Shown here: piece after piece, positions 2,355 through 42,925 of the stretch
Position numbering within the stretch: position 1 is the stretch's first letter
Layout of the letters: each line of letters opens with the position of its first letter
From: Alteromonas sp. MMG017
Lineage (GTDB): Bacteria > Pseudomonadota > Gammaproteobacteria > Enterobacterales > Alteromonadaceae
NCBI RefSeq assembly: GCF_018100795.1
Contig: NZ_JAGJDY010000003.1
Coordinates: 62,001 to 126,000 of the forward strand
Direction: 5' to 3'
Length of the DNA stretch: 64,000 bases
Notes under the pieces: model-generated
The model's input: the letters and a program-made list of their open reading frames with translations, nothing else
The model's database searches: none
What the model was told of the DNA's origin: nothing
Position numbers and translations under genes: made by a program

Positions 2355-3479
2355 GTGGAAAAAACGCTTACAAAACTGAATGACCTGATGAAACAGCATA
2401 AAACGCTTTTGCTTGTGCTGCCTTGGTTTCTATATGCCTTCTATCTCATTATATGGGCAGCCCCACAATATGAGAGTCAAAGTCAGTTAATCGTAAAATC
2501 TAGTGATGGTGGTAGCAGTTTTGACCCTTCTTCACTACTTATGTCAGCAGGCATCAGCTCCGGAGGTATGGGAAATGAGAGTCAGTTGGTGGAAGCTTAT
2601 ATCAAATCTGCAGACATGATTAAGTATTTGGATGAGACCATTAGCTTAAGAGAACATTACATGTCTGATGAGGCCGACTTTTTTAGCGGCTTATCAAGTT
2701 CTCATAAGCAAGAAAGCTTTTATCAGTTTTACTTAGATCACGTTGAAGTGAGTGTAGATTCGGCGTCGTCCGTTATTTCACTTCGTACCCGCGCATTCAA
2801 CCCCGAATTCGCCCAAGTTATAAACCAAGCAATTGTGGTAAAAGCGGAAGAATTTATAAACAATATCAACAACAATCTGGCCAAATCAAAGTTGACGTTT
2901 GCGAAAGGCGAGCACGAAATTGTCGAGCAGAAACTTCAGCTAGCTAAAACCGAAATCCTAGGTTTTCAGTCTAAATATAATGTACTCGACCCTACCGCAG
3001 AAGGCGCGGCTTTTCAACAAATTGCATTTTCATTAGAAGCCACCTTGGCACAAAAGAAAGCAGAATTAAGCACCATTTCAACGATGATGTCTGACGCAGC
3101 GCCTGAGGTAATTAATATAAAGCGTGAAATCGGTGCGTTGCAACGTGAAATTAATAAACGCAAAGAACAGATTAGTACTTCTGATCCCGACAACTCTGAC
3201 ACAGACCTTTCTGTTGGTGAACTGATGGCTCAATACAGTAACCTACAGGTACAATTGCAGTTAGCCATTCAGGCATTTTCTTCTTCACTTATTACCCTTG
3301 AAAACGCGCGTGTAGAGACCTATCAAAAATTGCAGCATTTAGTGACTATTGAGTCACCTACCCTTCCTGATGACAATAAGTACCCTACGGTCATTTACAA
3401 CTTGGTGCTATTTGGCGTCATACTTTTATTGCTTTATGGCATCATTCGAATTGTACTAGCCACAATCAGAGAACTATAA
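2355..3479 (+). CDS. kpsE: Capsule export inner-membrane protein KpsE (polysaccharide co-polymerase)
   Basis: Inner-membrane anchored periplasmic protein that couples KpsMT to the outer-membrane channel. It has one transmembrane helix near residues 17-35, a long periplasmic part rich in predicted coiled coil (about 170-320, Lys/Glu/Gln-rich), and a second transmembrane helix near 345-367, the two-TM topology of the KpsE/Wzz class. The start is GTG at 2355. It is the last gene of the kps export operon in this window, because a strong inverted repeat follows 20 bp after the stop. KpsE-like RkpR/BexC proteins are the alternative family names. Confidence 0.85.
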   Translation: MEKTLTKLNDLMKQHKTLLLVLPWFLYAFYLIIWAAPQYESQSQLIVKSSDGGSSFDPSSLLMSAGISSGGMGNESQLVEAYIKSADMIKYLDETISLREHYMSDEADFFSGLSSSHKQESFYQFYLDHVEVSVDSASSVISLRTRAFNPEFAQVINQAIVVKAEEFINNINNNLAKSKLTFAKGEHEIVEQKLQLAKTEILGFQSKYNVLDPTAEGAAFQQIAFSLEATLAQKKAELSTISTMMSDAAPEVINIKREIGALQREINKRKEQISTSDPDNSDTDLSVGELMAQYSNLQVQLQLAIQAFSSSLITLENARVETYQKLQHLVTIESPTLPDDNKYPTVIYNLVLFGVILLLLYGIIRIVLATIREL

Positions 3480-3498
3480 CACTCAATATCTAAAGCTT

Positions 3499-3545
3499 AT
3501 TTGTATCGCACTTCGCCTTTATTATTAAAGTGCGATACAAATTTT
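3499..3545 (+). terminator. Rho-independent terminator of the kps operon
   Basis: Perfect 15-bp inverted repeat: arm ATTTGTATCGCACTT at 3499-3513 and its exact complement at 3528-3542, with a 14-nt loop and a short run of four T (3542-3545). It lies 20 bp after the kpsE stop, so it most likely ends capsule-export transcription. Confidence 0.75.
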
Positions 3546-3697
3546 CTAGTCAACACCATGATAAAACGCTATTCATTCCCTCGCTAATTAAGTTTCTTCA
3601 CCGCATTACTCTTACAGCGCTACCGGTGCAAGAACGTTTAAAATTCAAGCAAAACTCATTTTTGACAGTCTTAAAAGTGGAGTTTAACGTCCAAATC

Positions 3698-3726
3698 TTG
3701 TGTCTTTACTCGAGCTTTAGTATAAC
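3698..3726 (+). promoter_or_regulatory. Candidate sigma-70 promoter for the peptide transporter
   Basis: TTGTGT and TATAAC are separated by 17 bp, about 87 bp upstream of the transporter start. The -10 matches five of six consensus bases but the -35 only three, so this is tentative. Confidence 0.3.
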
Positions 3727-3812
3727 GGCTTATCCTATATTGGACCTATACCAAAAGAGCGTATTCATTAAGCGCTCTACGATAACAACCATAATTAATA
3801 TGGAACGATAAC

Positions 3813-5339
3813 GTGACTATAAAAAAATCTAACGACACCAGCTTTTTCGGCCATCCAGGGGGCCTTCGAACGCTGTTTTTCACAGAAATGTGGGAGCGCA
3901 TGAGTTATTACGGTATGCGTGCCCTCCTTGTTTTATTTATGACCGCCAGCCTTCAAACACAAGGGCTTGGTTTTACGGTAGCAACCGCTGGGGCAATCTA
4001 TGGCCTTTATACCGGTGCAGTTTACTTTTTAGGTTTACCTGGTGGTTGGTTATCTGACCGCCTCATTGGTGGTAAAAAGGCCGTGTGGTATGGCGGTATT
4101 ATTATCTTCTTAGGGCATGTAGTACTTGCTATCGACCTACAGAACTTATTTTTTGTAGGCTTAATTCTTGTGGCAACGGGAACTGGACTATTAAAACCCA
4201 ATATTTCAGCCATGGTTGGACAACAATATGGCGATGAAGATGCTCGAAGAGACAGTGGTTATGCCCTTTATTATATGGGTATCAACATTGGTTCCCTTAT
4301 TGCCTATTTGGTAACAGGTTACTTGCAAGAAAACTGGGGCTGGGACTATGCCTTTGGTGCTGCCGCTATTGGTATGGCTATCGGTCTTATTCAATACTAC
4401 TTTACCAACTCGTCGCTAGCTTCAGATTCAACTGCGCCTACCAATCCTTACACCGGCAGTGCTAGGAAAACCGCGTGGACAGCAGTTATTGCGACCGTCG
4501 CCTTGGCTGTGGTTGTTATCGTTCTTGCTCACATGGGAACAATTGTCATTGACCCTCTGTTACTTGCTCAGCAAGTGGCGGTATTTTTTACCGCGGTTTT
4601 TTTCTTATACTTTGGCTTCATCTACTTTAAAGGTGCGCTTAGCGATAATGAAAAACGACGTATGTGGGCACTATTTTTAGTTTGCTTAGCTTCTGCCTGT
4701 TTTTGGTCAGGCTTTGAGCAAGCTGGCTCTTCATTGAACTTATTTGCTCAGAACTACACTGATAGAGCTTTATCCGCGGGTTCAATCTTCACATCATGGT
4801 TTGGACTTTCTACTATCCCAACGGTATGGTTCCAGCTTTCAAACTCCCTATTTATTATTATTCTTTCACCTTTCTTCGCCGCCCTTTGGATTAACCTTGC
4901 CAAGCGTATGATTGACCCATCATACACGCTGAAATGTGCAATTGGTCTTGTGATCATGGCGACAGGCTTCTTGGTGATGTTTATGGCCTCTCAGTACGCT
5001 GCACAAGGTTTAAAAGTAGCCCCCATGTGGTTGGTCACTACCTACTTTTTACATACAGTTGGTGAACTATGTTTGAGCCCGGTTGCGTTAAGTGCGGTAA
5101 GTAAATTGTCACCCAAACGTTTTGCAGGTCAAATGATGGGGGTTTTCGTTTTAACCTACTCTATCGGTAACATCATTGCCGGATTATTGTCAGGTAATTT
5201 TGACCCTGAAAATGTGTCTGAAATGCCTAACCTTTACCTACAAATCGCGTTATTCAGTATCGCCATTGGTATTGTGATTGCGCTGCTTAGCCTCAAATCA
5301 CGTTTTTGGGAAAAAGCAGGCGTTGAATCGAAGGCCTAA
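3813..5339 (+). CDS. Proton-dependent di/tripeptide transporter, POT/PTR2 family
   Basis: Inner-membrane MFS symporter that imports small peptides with protons. It has 508 aa and about 14 hydrophobic segments, the bacterial POT layout. The family's proton-coupling motif ExxER is seen as EMWER at residues 25-29, followed by the PTR2 signature area (GGWLSDRLIGGKKAVWYGG near 75-93) and YYMGINIGS near 155. The start is GTG at 3813, which precedes the conserved N-terminal block and leaves no better ATG. It stands alone between the kps terminator and the galE pair. It could be called a DtpA-like transporter, but substrate preference cannot be read from sequence. Confidence 0.88.
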   Translation: MTIKKSNDTSFFGHPGGLRTLFFTEMWERMSYYGMRALLVLFMTASLQTQGLGFTVATAGAIYGLYTGAVYFLGLPGGWLSDRLIGGKKAVWYGGIIIFLGHVVLAIDLQNLFFVGLILVATGTGLLKPNISAMVGQQYGDEDARRDSGYALYYMGINIGSLIAYLVTGYLQENWGWDYAFGAAAIGMAIGLIQYYFTNSSLASDSTAPTNPYTGSARKTAWTAVIATVALAVVVIVLAHMGTIVIDPLLLAQQVAVFFTAVFFLYFGFIYFKGALSDNEKRRMWALFLVCLASACFWSGFEQAGSSLNLFAQNYTDRALSAGSIFTSWFGLSTIPTVWFQLSNSLFIIILSPFFAALWINLAKRMIDPSYTLKCAIGLVIMATGFLVMFMASQYAAQGLKVAPMWLVTTYFLHTVGELCLSPVALSAVSKLSPKRFAGQMMGVFVLTYSIGNIIAGLLSGNFDPENVSEMPNLYLQIALFSIAIGIVIALLSLKSRFWEKAGVESKA

Positions 5340-5483
5340 CTTTATTAATGAGAATATTAAAAAGGTGAGTAAATTCTGCTGAAAAGGACTCATTAGACCA
5401 ATTACGGTTTTAACCTTTCTTGCAATCACCTACAATAACCGCCGTTACACAATATGTGTCGGCGGTTTTTATTTGAGTACGCT

Positions 5484-5786
5484 ATGAAATTTTATTTTTC
5501 CACCCGAAATATTCCTCAACTGAAAGGTCTCCCTCTTACCGAACGCGTTAAGCGTTTAGACAGAGCAGCATCACGGATGACCGTTCCAGAAAAAACACTC
5601 ATGAACGTGCTCAAGCTACTGGTTTTCATACCCGCTTTTGTGCTTATATTACAAACCGCATCGAACTGGACATCACTGTTGTGGGCGGGACTTGTATTTC
5701 TTCTTTACCCGCTATTAGTTAAACCGATACAACATTCAATATGTGCTAAATATTTGGCACCTAATTCAGACAAGGAGCATGCATGA
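5484..5786 (+). CDS. Small two-helix membrane protein of unknown function
   Basis: I do not recognise a named function. The 100-aa product (ATG at 5484) has a polar N-terminal half with [17 protein letters not shown], then two hydrophobic segments near 46-60 and 66-82 and a short polar tail. An in-frame extension to 5454 exists but has no conserved look. Its TGA overlaps the galE ATG (ATGA), so it is co-translated with galE; this suggests a shared transcript rather than a shared pathway. Likely an inner-membrane protein of a lineage-specific family. Confidence 0.6.
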
Positions 5787-6805
5787 AAACCATCTTGGTT
5801 ACCGGTGGCGCAGGATACATTGGAAGTCATACTGTACTTCAACTACTCGAACAGGATTACAGCGTGGTTGTCCTCGACAACTTGGCGAATTCAAGTGCAG
5901 AGTCACTGAGACGTGTTGAGGCTATCTCGGGAAAATCGGTCACTTTCGTTCAAGGTGATATTCGCGACACTGCCGTGCTTGATGGTATTTTCAGTGAGCA
6001 CAGTATTTACGCCGTAATCCACTTCGCGGGCCTAAAAGCCGTAGGAGAATCGGTTCAGCAGCCCCTGTCTTACTACGAAAATAACGTTTATGGCACGCTT
6101 ACCCTATGTAAATCGATGCAAAAGCACAACGTTAAGAACATCGTATTTAGCTCTTCTGCCACAGTGTATGGCGACCCGGCAGCCCTTCCTTTACGGGAAG
6201 ATATGGCGACTGGACACCCAACTAACCCTTACGGTATGTCTAAGTTAATGGTAGAGCATGTGTTGGCTGATTTGTTTGTGTCAGACAGCGAATGGAACAT
6301 TGTGCTACTTCGTTACTTTAACCCAGTAGGCGCCCACGCATCTGGCAGCATTGGTGAAGATCCTAACGGTATTCCAAACAATCTCATGCCATATATTTCA
6401 CAAGTCGCTACTGGGAAATTAGCAAAGCTGAGTGTATTTGGTGACGATTACGACACCCATGATGGCACAGGCGTACGTGATTACATTCACGTAGAAGACT
6501 TGGCTAATGGACACTTAAAAGCGATTGATAGAATTGCTTTAAATATGGGTCTTGATAAATACAACTTGGGAACCGGCCAGGGTTACTCAGTGCTAGATAT
6601 GATTAAAGCATTTGAAAAGGCATCGGGTAAAACGATTCCTTATGCTATCGCACCGCGCCGTAGTGGCGATGTAGCTGCATGTTATGCAGACCCAACTAAA
6701 GCAGCTACCGAATTGAATTGGCATTCTGAGAAAGGTTTAGAAGCTATGTGTGCGGATACATGGAACTGGCAATCACAAAATCCTCAGGGTTACCCCAAAG
6801 GTTAG
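5783..6805 (+). CDS. galE: UDP-glucose 4-epimerase GalE
   Basis: Interconverts UDP-glucose and UDP-galactose with bound NAD, feeding surface polysaccharide synthesis. At 340 aa it is the usual size. The Rossmann motif GGAGYIG lies at residues 8-14, the catalytic SSSATVYG region around 122-130, and the short-chain dehydrogenase pair Y150xxxK154 in NPYGMSK. The C-terminal substrate part contains RxGD ([13 protein letters not shown]). It starts four bases inside the preceding small membrane gene with a good Shine-Dalgarno (AAGGAG, 5772-5777). A terminator follows within 60 bp. Placement near capsule genes fits a role in sugar nucleotide supply. Confidence 0.95.
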
Positions 6806-6861
6806 TTAGCCAATTCTGTATGTAGTGAGGCAACTTGCAAAGATACGCTAAGCAGAATCTA

Positions 6862-6900
6862 AAAAGCCCCTCAACGAATTACCGTTCAGGGGCTTTTGTT
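6862..6900. terminator. Bidirectional terminator between galE and mlaA
   Basis: Inverted repeat with arms AAAAGCCCCTCAACG (6862-6876) and CGTTCAGGGGCTTTT (6883-6897), one mismatch, flanked by A and T runs, between two convergent genes. It can serve both strands. Confidence 0.8.
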
Positions 6901-6932
6901 TTTAGCTTCTTAGGTGTTTAGCTTCTTAGGTA
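6901..6932. repeat. Two-copy 16-bp tandem repeat
   Basis: TTTAGCTTCTTAGGTG (6901-6916) is followed directly by TTTAGCTTCTTAGGTA (6917-6932). The next 50 bp are rich in TTAGCT/AGCTAA. The repeat lies between the terminator and the mlaA stop; no function is evident. Confidence 0.6.
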
Positions 6933-6980
6933 TTAGCTTAGTTAGCTGCAAGCTAGAGCTAAGCGCTAAATAGCTAAGAG

Positions 6981-7844
6981 TTAATGACCTTGAGGGCCGT
7001 CTTCTTCAGGAGCATCTGTTGAAGAGTCATCTTCAACATCCATTTCTTCATACTCAAGCATAGCTTCGAACTCGGCGAAGTCATCTAACTGTTCTTCTTC
7101 TATCGCCTTATCACCACTTTTACCATCAGTAACTTTGAACTCAAGGTTTTCGAAGTAAGCATTTTTCACAAATGCATAATCATCTACCGACTGCTCTAGC
7201 TGTTGCTCTTGGTCAATCAGTGCAGCACGCCCCTCTAATAAGGACACTAAATACCGTGCAATAGCGAACTGGCCATCAATAATTGCCATTGGATACACCA
7301 TACCGTCTACAACGTTACCGGAAAAGCTACGAGGATCATTTGGACCAAGCGCGGGTAACATTAAGAATGGGCCTGTTCCTACGCCCCATTTACCCATGGT
7401 TTCGCCAAACTCTTCTTCTTTTTTGGCTATACCTATATGGTTAGCAACATCAATAGTGCCGAATAGTCCCACGGTCGAATTAAGCACAAAGCGGGCTAGG
7501 CTATCCATACCGTCGTCCACTTTGCCCTGAAACATATTGTTCATAAAGTTGGCTGGCTCTTGCAAGTTTTCAGCAGCGTTGGACAGGCCAACACGTGCAA
7601 AATGAGGCATCACCGTGACATAACCTACCGTGATCGGCCGCAGTACGTATGCATCTAACACTTCCCAGTTGAAGTCCCACATTACGCGGTTTACTGGCTC
7701 TAGAGGATCCCTTGGGTCACCCGCATCTTGTACTTGATTATTATTTTGATCAACTTGTTGAGAAGCTTGCTGACTTGCACACCCGCCTAGCAAACTTGCT
7801 AACACAAGCGCACTTACCGAGGCCCACTTTGAAAATTTAATCAC
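6981..7844 (-). CDS. mlaA: Phospholipid-transport outer-membrane lipoprotein MlaA (VacJ)
   Basis: Outer-membrane lipoprotein of the Mla system, which removes mislocalised phospholipids from the outer leaflet. A lipoprotein signal ends in LLGGC (Cys22), followed by a Gln/Asn linker and the MlaA core: DPLEPVNRVMWDFN near 48-61, EPANFMNNMFQG around 96-107, and NSTVGLFGTIDVA about 122-134. The 287-aa protein carries an acidic tail (Glu/Asp-rich, after about 240) longer than E. coli MlaA (251 aa). Its ATG overlaps the ccmI stop, so it is translated as the last gene of the ccm operon, an unusual partner since the other mla genes are not here. Confidence 0.9.
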   Translation of the reverse strand: MIKFSKWASVSALVLASLLGGCASQQASQQVDQNNNQVQDAGDPRDPLEPVNRVMWDFNWEVLDAYVLRPITVGYVTVMPHFARVGLSNAAENLQEPANFMNNMFQGKVDDGMDSLARFVLNSTVGLFGTIDVANHIGIAKKEEEFGETMGKWGVGTGPFLMLPALGPNDPRSFSGNVVDGMVYPMAIIDGQFAIARYLVSLLEGRAALIDQEQQLEQSVDDYAFVKNAYFENLEFKVTDGKSGDKAIEEEQLDDFAEFEAMLEYEEMDVEDDSSTDAPEEDGPQGH

Positions 7845-39450: not shown

Positions 39451-40674
39451 ATGCTGAAAGCAGTACCTATTGATGATCTCAAACCCGGGATGTACATCAA
39501 CCAAGTACTTAAACAAACTGGCAGCTTACAGATGCGTTCAAAGGGTCTTGTAAAACACCAAACAGTTATCAACACCTTAAAATCCCGTGGGATACAGACT
39601 GTTCAAGTAGACTTCGAGAAGTCTCTTAATCACGAACCATCGACCGATTCAGCCCCGCTTTCTACACCAGAATCAAACACTCAAGCGCCTGCTAAAGTAG
39701 AAAAAGACCAACAGGTCGCACAAAACAGCCTTACACGTAACGCAATGAAAGAAGCCAACGGGCTTTACTTTGATGCGGTAAATATACAAAACGGCTTTTT
39801 ATCCGCGCTTAACCGCGGTGCAGTAAACGACTTGAAGTTAGTGAAAGACCTAGCACAAAGCCTTATCGATAGTATATTTGATAACAAAGATGCCCTGTCT
39901 TGCTTAACCCTGATAAAAAACAACAACGCTTACCTGTTAGAACACTCCATCAACTGTAGTATTTTAATGGGCATGTTTACCCAATTTTTAGGCTATGACA
40001 GAGAAACCATAGACCAAGCGAGTTTAGGGGCTTTGTTAATGGACGTTGGAATGTCGTCCTTACCTATGGATGTTCACAACAACGTTGAGGATTTGTCAGC
40101 GGCAGATTGGGAGGTGATGAAAACCCATGTTGATATTGGTGTTGAGCTTGTGGAGCAGTGCGGTGAGATTTCGGATTTGGTGCTATCGATTATCGCGCAA
40201 CATCACGAACGCATAGACGGCAGCGGTTACCCTAAAGCACTCAAAGAAATAGAAATTTCCGAATTCGCGCGCATTGCAGGTATTATTGATACCTACGATG
40301 CTATGGTGTCTAACCGCCCCCACAAAAAAAGCATTAGCCCTACCCAAGCACTCAAACGACTAACGGAAGACGGCAGACTCGACCAAACCTTAGTTAGCCA
40401 GTTTGTTACATGCATGGGAGTGCACCCGGTAGGCTCAATTGTTAGGCTAAAAAGTGGAAAACTTGCCATTGTCAGCCAACAAAACCCACTTAGCACGATG
40501 AGCCCCATTGTGATGACATTTTATAGCGTCCCTTCGCAGCAATATGACGATATTACTCGACTAGATTTAAGTGCGAATGATGACGAAATTGTGTCGGGCG
40601 TACGACCCGATGATTTCAACGTGAACTTGTCGACTTTCTTTCAAGACGTATTGGTAAATCAAGCGCCAGACTAA
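39451..40674 (+). CDS. DUF3391/HD-GYP domain protein with degenerate HD motif
   Basis: Member of the cyclic-di-GMP phosphodiesterase-like HD-GYP family. An N-terminal DUF3391 domain covers about 1-60 (IDDLKPGMYINQVLKQTG). A linker is followed by the HD-GYP domain (about 150-340). Conserved parts are LEHSINC, THVDIG and HHERIDGSGYP, but the metal-binding HD pair reads MD (ALLMDVGMSSLP), with the usual His and the following GK Lys replaced by Met. Phosphodiesterase activity is therefore doubtful; a c-di-GMP sensing role is possible. SD TGGAG lies upstream. It is convergent with gspB, whose N-terminus resembles its own. Confidence 0.85.
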   Translation: MLKAVPIDDLKPGMYINQVLKQTGSLQMRSKGLVKHQTVINTLKSRGIQTVQVDFEKSLNHEPSTDSAPLSTPESNTQAPAKVEKDQQVAQNSLTRNAMKEANGLYFDAVNIQNGFLSALNRGAVNDLKLVKDLAQSLIDSIFDNKDALSCLTLIKNNNAYLLEHSINCSILMGMFTQFLGYDRETIDQASLGALLMDVGMSSLPMDVHNNVEDLSAADWEVMKTHVDIGVELVEQCGEISDLVLSIIAQHHERIDGSGYPKALKEIEISEFARIAGIIDTYDAMVSNRPHKKSISPTQALKRLTEDGRLDQTLVSQFVTCMGVHPVGSIVRLKSGKLAIVSQQNPLSTMSPIVMTFYSVPSQQYDDITRLDLSANDDEIVSGVRPDDFNVNLSTFFQDVLVNQAPD

Positions 40675-40714
40675 TTAGCATCCTGACTAATAAGCACCCT
40701 GACTAATAAGTAAA

Positions 40715-40740
40715 GGGTATTAACATTCACTTCAATACCC
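40715..40740. terminator. Candidate terminator between HD-GYP and gspB genes
   Basis: Stem GGGTATT (40715-40721) / AATACCC (40734-40740), preceded by AAA and followed by a loose T-rich stretch. Just upstream, CCTGACTAATAAGCA-like words occur twice in tandem (40682-40709). Confidence 0.45.
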
Positions 40741-40758
40741 GTTGCTTTTCCTTTGCCA

Positions 40759-42021
40759 TTACCAGTCAGTAAGCGCCGCCATGGTGAAAAGCTCTTCTTC
40801 AAAACCTAATACCACCTGCTGCGCTTCAATATTGACAATCTGCACCTTATCGTCAATCCAATCGCCTTCAGTCATTTGTATGCCATTCACTCGCACCCAA
40901 CGATCATCAGGTCGTGATGCGTACATATGCGCACTGAAATTCATAGAGGGCAACCGCGTTAATAGCCGCACAGGCAACTGATCGACACGCTGAATGTTAT
41001 CTCGTACCGTCACTTTCGTTTTTGGTTCAAAATCATCATTCTCGGCTTGGGTATCTAGTGCTGCCACCGCTTGATTGAATCGGGCTAACAGTTCTGGTGA
41101 AACTTCAATCTTGTTTTCATCTTGAACGTTCTGAGAGTTCAGCACCCGCCCTTCTTGTTCAGCCGCCGCTAAATCGAAGGTATCATCAGCGTCATTTTGA
41201 TTCCCCGAAGAAGCTTGGCTTCCCGTCCGTACGTTGCTTTGCGCCGCCTGAGAGTTTGGGTTGGTATTAGAAGCTTGCGCGATACTATCTGAACCAACTT
41301 CTTGCGAAGCAATTTCTTTAGAAGGTGGGTTGCCGCTAGTCGTTGATACTTGATCAGATGCATTAGGCATTATTGGCGGCATATTCACTGGCGCTGTTGT
41401 TTGCCCAGCTCCTTGTACATTTTCTTGCACACTTCCTTGCCCATTTGCTTGCGCAGCTGTCTGTAAAGGAGCCTGTGCTGACTGTTGTTTAGGCTGTTGT
41501 TTAGACAACTGGGTGCCCTGCTCCAAGGTAACAGTCGTGTTTGAGGCTTCAGGTTGAATAGATTCCACAACCGACGCCGTAACCGCAGGCCACCATTCAC
41601 CTCGCGTAGCAACCAGAAACCCTAAGTATAAACCACCTGCGACAATAGCAGAGTAAGTCGCAAGCTCTTTGCCGTATACCTTCCACATGGAAGGCAGCCC
41701 TTGCACAGTAGGCAAAAACAAACTGCGATTAAATTGGTCAGATAGCGTTTTGTCAAACTTTGCGCTGGTATCGTGCTGGCCACGTAATAACGCTTGGGTT
41801 TGCGTGCGATGCCCAGTTCCGGCTGTAGTTGCAGGCGCAATTTCTACCGTTTGGTCAGGATCTATTTCTATTTCCTGAACACCCATTTCTGCTAAGCCTT
41901 CCACCATAGCATCGCTAGATACCAAGCCTGATTTTCGTATTTTAACCGGTCCGTTCTGTTGCGTTATTCTAACAATCACCATGCCGGGCTTTAGGTCACT
42001 AATACTAAGTATATTAGACAT
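40759..42021 (-). CDS. gspB: Type II secretion assembly protein GspB with N-terminal DUF3391-like domain
   Basis: Partner of the GspA ATPase in inserting the secretin GspD through the cell wall. Residues 1-60 (ISDLKPGMVIVRITQQNG...KSGLV) resemble DUF3391 of the neighbouring HD-GYP protein. A TM helix lies near 121-139. The long Gln/Asn/Ser-rich periplasmic linker (about 165-330) is low complexity. The C-terminal T2SS_GspB domain (about 350-420) includes FSAHMYASRPDDRWVRVNG and MTEGDWI. The last eight bases of gspA overlap its start. The role is inferred from the GspAB family; the fused N-terminal domain is not in the textbook E. coli form. Confidence 0.85.
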   Translation of the reverse strand: MSNILSISDLKPGMVIVRITQQNGPVKIRKSGLVSSDAMVEGLAEMGVQEIEIDPDQTVEIAPATTAGTGHRTQTQALLRGQHDTSAKFDKTLSDQFNRSLFLPTVQGLPSMWKVYGKELATYSAIVAGGLYLGFLVATRGEWWPAVTASVVESIQPEASNTTVTLEQGTQLSKQQPKQQSAQAPLQTAAQANGQGSVQENVQGAGQTTAPVNMPPIMPNASDQVSTTSGNPPSKEIASQEVGSDSIAQASNTNPNSQAAQSNVRTGSQASSGNQNDADDTFDLAAAEQEGRVLNSQNVQDENKIEVSPELLARFNQAVAALDTQAENDDFEPKTKVTVRDNIQRVDQLPVRLLTRLPSMNFSAHMYASRPDDRWVRVNGIQMTEGDWIDDKVQIVNIEAQQVVLGFEEELFTMAALTDW

Positions 42022-42925
42022 ATAAACTCCCTAGGCCATAGCCACAGAACACAGCCACCACAAATGCGCTGAAAAGCCACCATTTGCGATTACCTTGCAT
42101 ACGCTGGCTTACCACATCTTCACCAAGAATTTGTTGTGCTGCGGCGAGGAAAATAGGCTTTTGCACTACGGCATGTTGTTTGGTGAAAGAAAGGGTTAAT
42201 GCTCTATCACAAAGCAAGTTTATAACTCTTGGAATACCACCGGTTATTTGATGCACTGCCCGTAGGGTAGATTTGCTAAAAATACTCACATCACCATGCG
42301 CAACACTAAGCCTATGCGCTATGTAAGCACTAACTTCCGGGGCAGTGAGTGGCAATAAATGATACCGCGCAGTAATACGCTGGGCGAGCTGTCTGAGCTC
42401 GTTTCGCTTCAACAGTTGCTGTAATTCTGGCTGGCCGATTAAAACTACTTTTAATAGCTTTTCACGGTTAGTTTCTAGGTTCGTGAGTAACCGTAATTGT
42501 TCCAACACTTCTGGCAATAAATGCTGCGCTTCATCAACCATCAACACCGTGTTCATGCCCTGTTGGTGATTTTCTGCCAACTTAGATAAAATTAAGTCAG
42601 TGAAATATTTTAAGCTGGCTTTCTCTTCTTGGTACTGTAAACCAAGTTCATCACACACGGTGGCGAGTAACTCCAGCGCAGAAAGCGTTGGGTTTAAAAT
42701 CATTGCGACTTGGGTATTATCGGGCAATTGCTGCAATAACTTACGAGAAACCGTGGTTTTCCCTGTACCTACCTCGCCGGTAAGCATAACAAAACCGCCA
42801 CTTTCACTTAGCCCAAAAGTAAGGTGAGCTAACGCCTCTTTGTGCCGCGGGCTCATATAGAGGTAATCGGGGTTTGGCGCGATTGAAAACGGATTATCGC
42901 TTAACCCAAAGTAATTCAAATACAT
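42014..42925 (-). CDS. gspA: Type II secretion AAA ATPase GspA/ExeA
   Basis: ATPase of the ExeAB/GspAB complex. The N-terminal YLNYFGLSDNPFSIAPNPDYLY block is the ExeA family signature. Walker A GEVGTGKTT at 50-58, Walker B VLMVDEAQHL near 126-135 and the sensor/arginine region (QRITARYHLLPL) follow. A TM helix sits at the C-terminus (about 284-302). The 303-aa form lacks the periplasmic peptidoglycan-binding domain of Aeromonas ExeA (547 aa). Forms an operon with gspB. Confidence 0.9.
   Translation of the reverse strand: MYLNYFGLSDNPFSIAPNPDYLYMSPRHKEALAHLTFGLSESGGFVMLTGEVGTGKTTVSRKLLQQLPDNTQVAMILNPTLSALELLATVCDELGLQYQEEKASLKYFTDLILSKLAENHQQGMNTVLMVDEAQHLLPEVLEQLRLLTNLETNREKLLKVVLIGQPELQQLLKRNELRQLAQRITARYHLLPLTAPEVSAYIAHRLSVAHGDVSIFSKSTLRAVHQITGGIPRVINLLCDRALTLSFTKQHAVVQKPIFLAAAQQILGEDVVSQRMQGNRKWWLFSAFVVAVFCGYGLGSLYV

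Follow-up and report, generated by a model that had tools for sequence, protein, structure and literature searches.

The scaffold protein GspB of type II secretion systems (T2SS) is represented among solved structures by OutB/GspB of Dickeya (4wfw), which shares with the protein described here a periplasmic T2SSB/homology region domain and one membrane segment. Unlike that protein, OutB has a short cytoplasmic region and no GspA partner, according to the available text of PMC9239104, and no DUF3391 domain is described for it. A closer counterpart is the Alteromonas-type GspB of Zhang et al. 2022 (PMC9239104), which carries DUF3391, a small domain known otherwise mainly from c-di-GMP enzymes, is accompanied by a short GspA and adjoins a DUF3391-encoding gene that those authors raised as a possible origin of the domain. 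The domain is termed supplementary there and the neighbour is not named as an HD-GYP protein; the term HD-GYP is absent from the main text. The DUF3391-T2SSB architecture, in identical domain order, is also mentioned from InterPro in a 2026 Leptospira paper (PMC12943098), whose available text gives it one clause, without locus, clade or neighbour analysis. The same text calls the role of DUF3391 unclear and states that some HD-GYP proteins stayed active after its deletion. On the HD-GYP side, the best structural match of the gspB neighbour is Bd1817 of Bdellovibrio (3tm8), which belongs to the HD-GYP proteins but has no phosphodiesterase activity. According to the available text of PMC12943098, Bd1817 has the same DUF3391 plus HD-GYP make-up; according to that of PMC4159591 it lacks the Tyr of GYP, whereas the neighbour has an intact GYP and has lost the HD-motif His and Lys. 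Among open-licence papers, we found none combining HD-GYP with GspB, or HD-GYP with Paraglaciecola.

We examined a 64,000-nucleotide stretch of the Alteromonas sp. MMG017 genome (contig NZ_JAGJDY010000003.1, positions 62,001 to 126,000), referred to below as the window. Its open reading frames place the leu genes ahead of an HD-GYP gene on the forward strand, followed by gspB and gspA on the opposite strand. The HD-GYP gene and gspB are convergent, with 84 bp separating their stop codons, and the gspA stop and gspB start overlap by 8 bp (ATGTCTAA). The features, in window coordinates, are:

39451–40674, + strand: HD-GYP protein, 407 aa, with N-terminal DUF3391, behind leuD and convergent with gspB (Pfam HD_5 86.6 bits, DUF3391 61 bits; AlphaFold2 mean pLDDT 90.2)
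39454–39837, + strand: DUF3391 of the HD-GYP protein, residues 2–129, globular part about 2–58 (Pfam hmmscan; AlphaFold2 model)
40039–40053, + strand: altered HD motif of the HD-GYP protein, MDVGM, residues 197–201 (HDxGK in intact relatives; sequence comparison)
40201–40233, + strand: intact HHERIDGSGYP motif of the HD-GYP protein, residues 251–261 (sequence comparison)
40423–40656, + strand: C-terminal, mainly beta part of the HD-GYP protein, residues 325–402 (AlphaFold2 model; retained beside DUF3391 in the HD-less form of genus g37)
40759–42021, − strand: gspB, 420 aa, type II secretion scaffold (Pfam T2SSB 74 bits; 33.8 bits to OutB structure 4wfw)
40777–40953, − strand: periplasmic T2SSB/homology region of GspB, residues 357–415 (Pfam)
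41608–41664, − strand: predicted transmembrane segment of GspB, residues 120–138 (hydropathy maximum)
41683–41742, − strand: conserved cytoplasmic juxtamembrane motif of GspB, SDQFNRSLFLPTVQGLPSMW, residues 94–113 (core pattern in 94 of 98 fused GspBs and 0 of 87 others)
41824–42006, − strand: DUF3391 globular domain of GspB, residues 6–66 (Pfam, BLASTP, AlphaFold2, hhalign)
42014–42925, − strand: gspA, short form, 303 aa, ATPase plus C-terminal membrane segment without the periplasmic part (ORF, Pfam/NCBIfam, hydropathy)

GspB belongs to the T2SSB family (PF16537), as its C-terminal domain follows the membrane segment and its gene adjoins gspA; it scores 54.4 bits against the NCBIfam equivalog NF037978, below the cut-off of 100. 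The HD-GYP protein displays both the HD domain fold and the HHExxDGxGYP motif by Pfam, sequence, AlphaFold2 and structure comparison, and the solved structures nearest to its model are Bd1817, PmGH, PA4781 and DvhD. The part predicted with high confidence at residues 325–402 (window 40423–40656) is an addition following the HD domain. Our analysis confirms DUF3391 on GspB, the main points of which are already published. Compared with Zhang et al. 2022, it adds the replacement of the GspB tip, a single origin over 19 genera as indicated by sequence trees, an apparently older neighbour with an altered active site, a form of that neighbour whose HD domain is gone in part of g37, and several genomes in which the GspB domain occurs independently.

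The first-pass annotation of this DNA had claimed that GspB and the adjacent HD-GYP protein have matching DUF3391-like N-termini. Both open reading frames are as it stated, the motifs it quoted occur in the translations, and Pfam, BLASTP and hhalign agree. GspB residues 6–66 match DUF3391 (PF11871) in Pfam hmmscan at 29.3 bits (E 1.4e-6), 1.5 bits above the cut-off of 27.8, and GspB scores 32.2 bits in the genome search. Residues 2–129 of the HD-GYP protein score 61 bits, and BLASTP aligns the two N-termini over 59 residues with 34% identity (E 2e-10). Because the Pfam margin is thin, we carried out a profile–profile comparison, setting 35 GspB against 18 HD-GYP N-termini, the latter drawn solely from genera whose GspB has no DUF3391. 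Hhalign returns a probability of 99.3% and an E of 4e-20 over 64 columns, while a modest control, five sequences of the GspB region surrounding the membrane segment, is not matched (E 0.84). Chance or convergent likeness of short motifs, for which the narrow Pfam margin might speak, is next to impossible given BLASTP, both AlphaFold2 models, and hhalign with its control. The similarity of the two N-termini is homology.

The GspB match covers positions 5–66 of the 136 in the DUF3391 model, which is the globular half and not the full length. The AlphaFold2 models of GspB (mean pLDDT 82.6) and the HD-GYP protein (90.2) show a matching order of elements over residues 1–54. After its N-terminal globular part, the HD-GYP model drops to a pLDDT below 50 at residues 65–86, so GspB carries the whole globular unit; the remaining half of the Pfam model is, in this predicted structure, the linker and helix of the HD-GYP protein. 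With the isolated GspB domain, Foldseek gives no match at E 0.001 or better, and the best VIA-align hit is gephyrin at Z 4.2, too weak for naming a fold. Bd1817 is not among the matches listed for the isolated domain, an absence that excludes nothing.

A survey of GspB N-termini, also suggested in the annotation, finds the DUF3391-GspB fusion in 19 of 52 sampled genera and not in the other 33 of the family, with no genus mixed; unfused GspBs mostly carry the canonical short tip. The loci read are a selection chosen for reading, a subset of the genomes searched, and comprise 98 fused gspB loci, 38 unfused ones with a separate gspA, 22 GspAB fusions within this family, and 27 loci outside it but in the same order. 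L118 and L119, second T2SSB copies in two genomes, are omitted from the counts. An order-wide profile search matches 75 of 295 genomes at E 1e-5 and displays a clear gap: 14 matches reach at least 94 bits, all from fused genera, and all others lie at or below 69 bits. The latter are mostly open frames of about 370–450 aa, as in HD-GYP proteins, with G401, G459 and G554 as exceptions. At E 1e-12, a class-wide search matched 1 of 274 genomes, the window's own. Among 80 of 100 relatives in a named sequence collection, titles give Alteromonas, Salinimonas, Paraglaciecola, Aliiglaciecola, Aestuariibacter, Bowmanella, Lacimicrobium, Glaciecola, Neptunicella or Alteromonadaceae, the lone exception being a “Gammaproteobacteria bacterium”.

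A tree built from GspA plus T2SSB has a branch with an SH-aLRT of 100 that separates 35 fused rows (of 98) from 56 others (of 87). The stem to the fused rows is long (0.49), and the deep part and root of this tree lack resolution. In domain trees, 24 GspB DUF3391 domains likewise form one side of a branch (support 96 and 98). All trees represent each genus by at most a few rows. Judged from these trees, the fusion arose once, in the common ancestor of Alteromonas and its allies.

The fused proteins also differ ahead of the membrane segment. Within the family, 37 of 38 unfused GspBs with a gene of their own have the canonical GspB tip (MS-ILxALKK type, for example MSYILDALKK), as do 18 of 27 from the rest of the order. 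Its pattern occurs in 2 of 98 fused GspBs, both chance matches within the start of the domain. Conversely, an FNRSLFLP-like motif precedes the membrane segment in 94 of 98 fused GspBs and in 0 of 87 others; the four misses have close variants, and elsewhere in the window's genome the motif has no match, GspB being the only one. Loss of the canonical tip together with the new motif indicates that the cytoplasmic end of GspB was exchanged and not merely extended. The short GspA is not specific to the fusion, as it also occurs in 23 of 38 unfused family loci. In one fused locus (L131 of G026, ORF 4989–7019, − strand), gspA and gspB share one 677-aa frame with DUF3391 between them; an internal gspB start is likely there because the topology of a single chain would be odd. 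GspA and GspB are encoded as one fused protein in the 22 GspAB loci of the family (for example L253, L229, L275, L256 and L239), many of which adjoin a convergent DUF3391 HD-GYP gene.

Of the 33 unfused genera, 17 have an HD-GYP gene with DUF3391 close to gspB and convergent with it. Long-GspA genera (g2, g57) and ones with GspAB fusions (g38, g39, g52, g55, g60 and others) are among them, whereas none of the 27 loci from other families has such a gene. On the simplest reading of this spread within unfused genera, the neighbour is older than the fusion. In the fused group, an HD-GYP gene is present in the gspB stretch at 87 of 98 loci and sits behind leuD in 75 of these 87.

The active site of this neighbour is altered throughout the fused clade. 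The HD-motif His and the following Lys are both replaced in 92 of 92 HD-GYP proteins of this type from fused genera (87 in the gspB stretch and 5 relocated, in G111, G142, G101, G180 and G199). Both residues are Met in 89, and one of the two is Ile or Leu in the other 3. All 35 unfused neighbours keep the His. This rule was derived from 90 neighbours (all 70 fused ones changed, all 20 unfused ones with the His). Forty loci picked and read afterwards agree with it: all 17 fused and all 15 unfused neighbours conform, and the other 8 loci have no HD-GYP gene in the stretch. The window protein has Met at both residues 197 and 201, equivalent to PmGH H221 and K225, which PmGH needs for its activity. 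Alanine at either position in PmGH essentially abolished hydrolysis, according to the available text of PMC4159591, and two HD-GYP proteins of V. cholerae whose HD motif is not intact had no activity, according to that of PMC4212101. We would not expect the neighbour in the fused clade to act as an ordinary phosphodiesterase any more; its residues suggest that hydrolysis was lost.

The altered proteins form one group of 22 rows (support 99) in a full-length HD-GYP tree, which omits one truncated neighbour without DUF3391 (G028). Their HD domain has a median dN/dS of 0.043 (35 pairs), and purifying selection of this strength implies that they are not decaying. Most other metal-site residues are kept, while 6 of 87 have also lost H277. 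The position of the PmGH metal ligand E185 is mostly Tyr; for the subgroup with this Tyr, the PmGH authors expected a binuclear centre (available text of PMC4159591). The fusion and the HD-motif change both fall on one stem and thus count as a single co-occurrence, one event. The motif of the HD-GYP paralogue is intact in 20 of 21 proteins, a tally that counts those of G014 and G056 twice. Among the unfused neighbours, 8 of 35 lack other catalytic residues: H250 and H277 in g48, g72 and 2 of 6 g75 genomes, and the Lys in g64. The H250/H277 loss (PmGH numbering) is a second, distinct one beside gspB, with the HD His kept, and is seen in L260 and L347 (g48), L244, L330 and L331 (g72), and L273 and L346 (g75). 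L283 (G118) contains tandem DUF3391 HD-GYP genes (2873–4138 and 4170–5387, − strand), one with Lys to Glu after the HD motif.

In 3 of 7 g37 genomes (G102, G150 and G301), we find a protein of about 165 aa without an HD domain:

L448 (G102), 1459–1977, + strand: HD-less form
L447 (G301), 1462–1980, + strand: HD-less form
L463 (G150), 1198–1704, − strand: HD-less form

These proteins align to the window HD-GYP protein only at DUF3391 (residues 3–59) and the C-terminal part (325–402), and their genes lie directly behind leuD, as does the HD-GYP gene in the window and at 75 of 87 fused loci. Pfam scores their DUF3391 at 44.6, 45.4 and 25.4 bits, the last below the cut-off; a single-sequence search detects the DUF3391 of the G102 and G301 proteins weakly (at most 3.5 bits), for which the Pfam profile makes up. 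Two are 92% identical and the third is 31% identical to those two, a divergence implying that the HD-less form is old and kept.

The GspB domain is also found apart from such a neighbour. G014, G048, G056 and G233 have a fused GspB, and their only HD-GYP copy is the one with the intact motif. A search at E 0.001 finds no DUF3391 other than the GspB domain in G119, G184, G211, G234 and G286 (completeness 82% for G286 and at least 97% for the other four). These five genomes indicate that the domain can stand alone and that the HD-GYP neighbour is not always needed for its retention.

By dN/dS, the GspB domain is under purifying selection hardly tighter than that on the DUF3391 of the HD-GYP protein: the medians are 0.12 (273 pairs, dS 0.2–1.5) and 0.148 (178 pairs, codon alignment), with 0.035 for T2SSB (76 pairs). 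Mean pairwise identity within the genus is 73% for the GspB domain (58 genomes) and 58% for the HD-GYP DUF3391 (54 genomes); within GspB, the linker averages 28% and T2SSB 81%. Thirteen columns of the domain are invariant over 35 GspBs of 19 genera.

What the domain does, and where it came from, can be weighed against these data. To us it is an even call that the GspB DUF3391 serves as a docking or regulatory module on the cytoplasmic side of the GspA–GspB complex, a true domain gained once, with the old neighbour altered in the same clade. The globular domain was gained in the common ancestor of Alteromonas and its allies, where it displaced the short cytoplasmic tip that GspB usually has. 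It sits in the cytoplasm, ahead of the new juxtamembrane motif and the membrane segment, as the GspB topology given in the available text of PMC9239104 has a cytoplasmic N-terminus. From there it would link the cytoplasmic face of the complex with the assembly of the secretin, probably by contacting the GspA ATPase or another inner-membrane T2SS part, and the HD-GYP protein would be an old neighbour, not an ordinary phosphodiesterase, in the fused clade. We infer this docking role from placement and conservation. Weighing against it, the isolated domain has no confident structural relative, unfused loci share the short GspA, and the dN/dS of the domain is hardly lower than that of the HD-GYP DUF3391. 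A passenger domain, fused by chance and without a function of its own, could be entertained since DUF3391 has no known function and HD-GYP activity is reportedly intact after its deletion (available text of PMC12943098), but a dN/dS of 0.12, the 13 invariant columns over 35 GspBs of 19 genera, and 73% identity against 28% for the linker in the same protein leave it very doubtful. If, instead, the HD-GYP protein were a non-hydrolysing c-di-GMP receptor that touches GspB through a DUF3391–DUF3391 contact, the level of c-di-GMP would control T2SS assembly. The replacement of His and Lys in 92 of 92 with most other metal-site residues kept, the HD-domain dN/dS of 0.043 over 35 pairs, the 17 of 17 fused neighbours read after the rule, and the presence of an HD-GYP gene at 87 of 98 fused loci would all suit such a pair. 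One shared ancestor, however, makes one co-occurrence; H277 is also lost in 6 of 87, the HD domain is entirely missing in three g37 genomes, G014, G048, G056, G233 and G119 retain a fused GspB without an HD-GYP protein of this type, five genomes have no second DUF3391, and unfused neighbours in g48, g72 and 2 of 6 g75 genomes lost catalytic residues too, though different ones. We consider this receptor pair distinctly unlikely. The annotation had suggested domain sharing between c-di-GMP signalling and secretion: sharing between the HD-GYP family and a T2SS scaffold is supported, and was published (PMC9239104), but a functional tie to c-di-GMP does not follow where the neighbour lacks the HD-motif His and Lys and, in part of g37, the HD domain. 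A non-enzymatic neighbour is favoured by the HD-less form, which has retained exactly DUF3391 and the C-terminal part at the leuD site where the HD-GYP gene lies in 75 of 87 fused loci, and which argues against c-di-GMP being all that the neighbour is there for. A neighbour acting through these two parts, and not the HD domain, to contact the GspB domain in most lineages is nonetheless an unlikely explanation, as it is completely absent from several genomes and strong purifying selection acts on its HD domain where this is kept. Genomes that lack any neighbour also argue against strict dependence of the GspB domain on it. More speculatively, the scaffold may have taken the HD-GYP accessory domain in one ancestor while the neighbour gave up catalysis (His to Met, Lys to Met) and became a non-enzymatic partner governing T2SS assembly via paired DUF3391 domains, part of one genus then cutting the HD domain and the GspB domain standing alone elsewhere; we hold this sequence of events possible, yet improbable.

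Compatible with the other functional readings, since it concerns origin only, is the suggestion of Zhang et al. 2022 that gspB received a copy of the adjacent HD-GYP gene's N-terminus by local duplication, to which we give slightly less than an even chance. A donor would have been at hand, given the convergent DUF3391 HD-GYP gene near gspB in 17 of 33 unfused genera, and in one tree the GspB domains fall together with HD-GYP domains from their own clade (58-row group, SH-aLRT 80), but that group also includes a second, distant HD-GYP paralogue. In topology tests over 66 columns, trees with the neighbour, the paralogue or unfused HD-GYP proteins as sister are all accepted, and three constrained trees scored better than a free quick search, so the test has no power; it omits eight long-branch or distant rows and all 13 “other” HD-GYP proteins, which the tree with the 58-row group includes. 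Simple read-through, moreover, cannot fuse convergent genes, and an inverted copy or recombination would be required. The exchange between neighbours that the annotation had raised is a possibility, given a convergent neighbour that seems to predate the fusion, but 66 alignment columns are too few to distinguish the neighbour from a paralogue as donor.

The GspB copy offers a simple setting for finding the binding partner of DUF3391, because it comes without an HD domain. A clade-wide active-site change beside a re-tipped T2SS scaffold, together with the HD-less form, makes it possible to test whether this HD-GYP protein is non-catalytic and what DUF3391 does.
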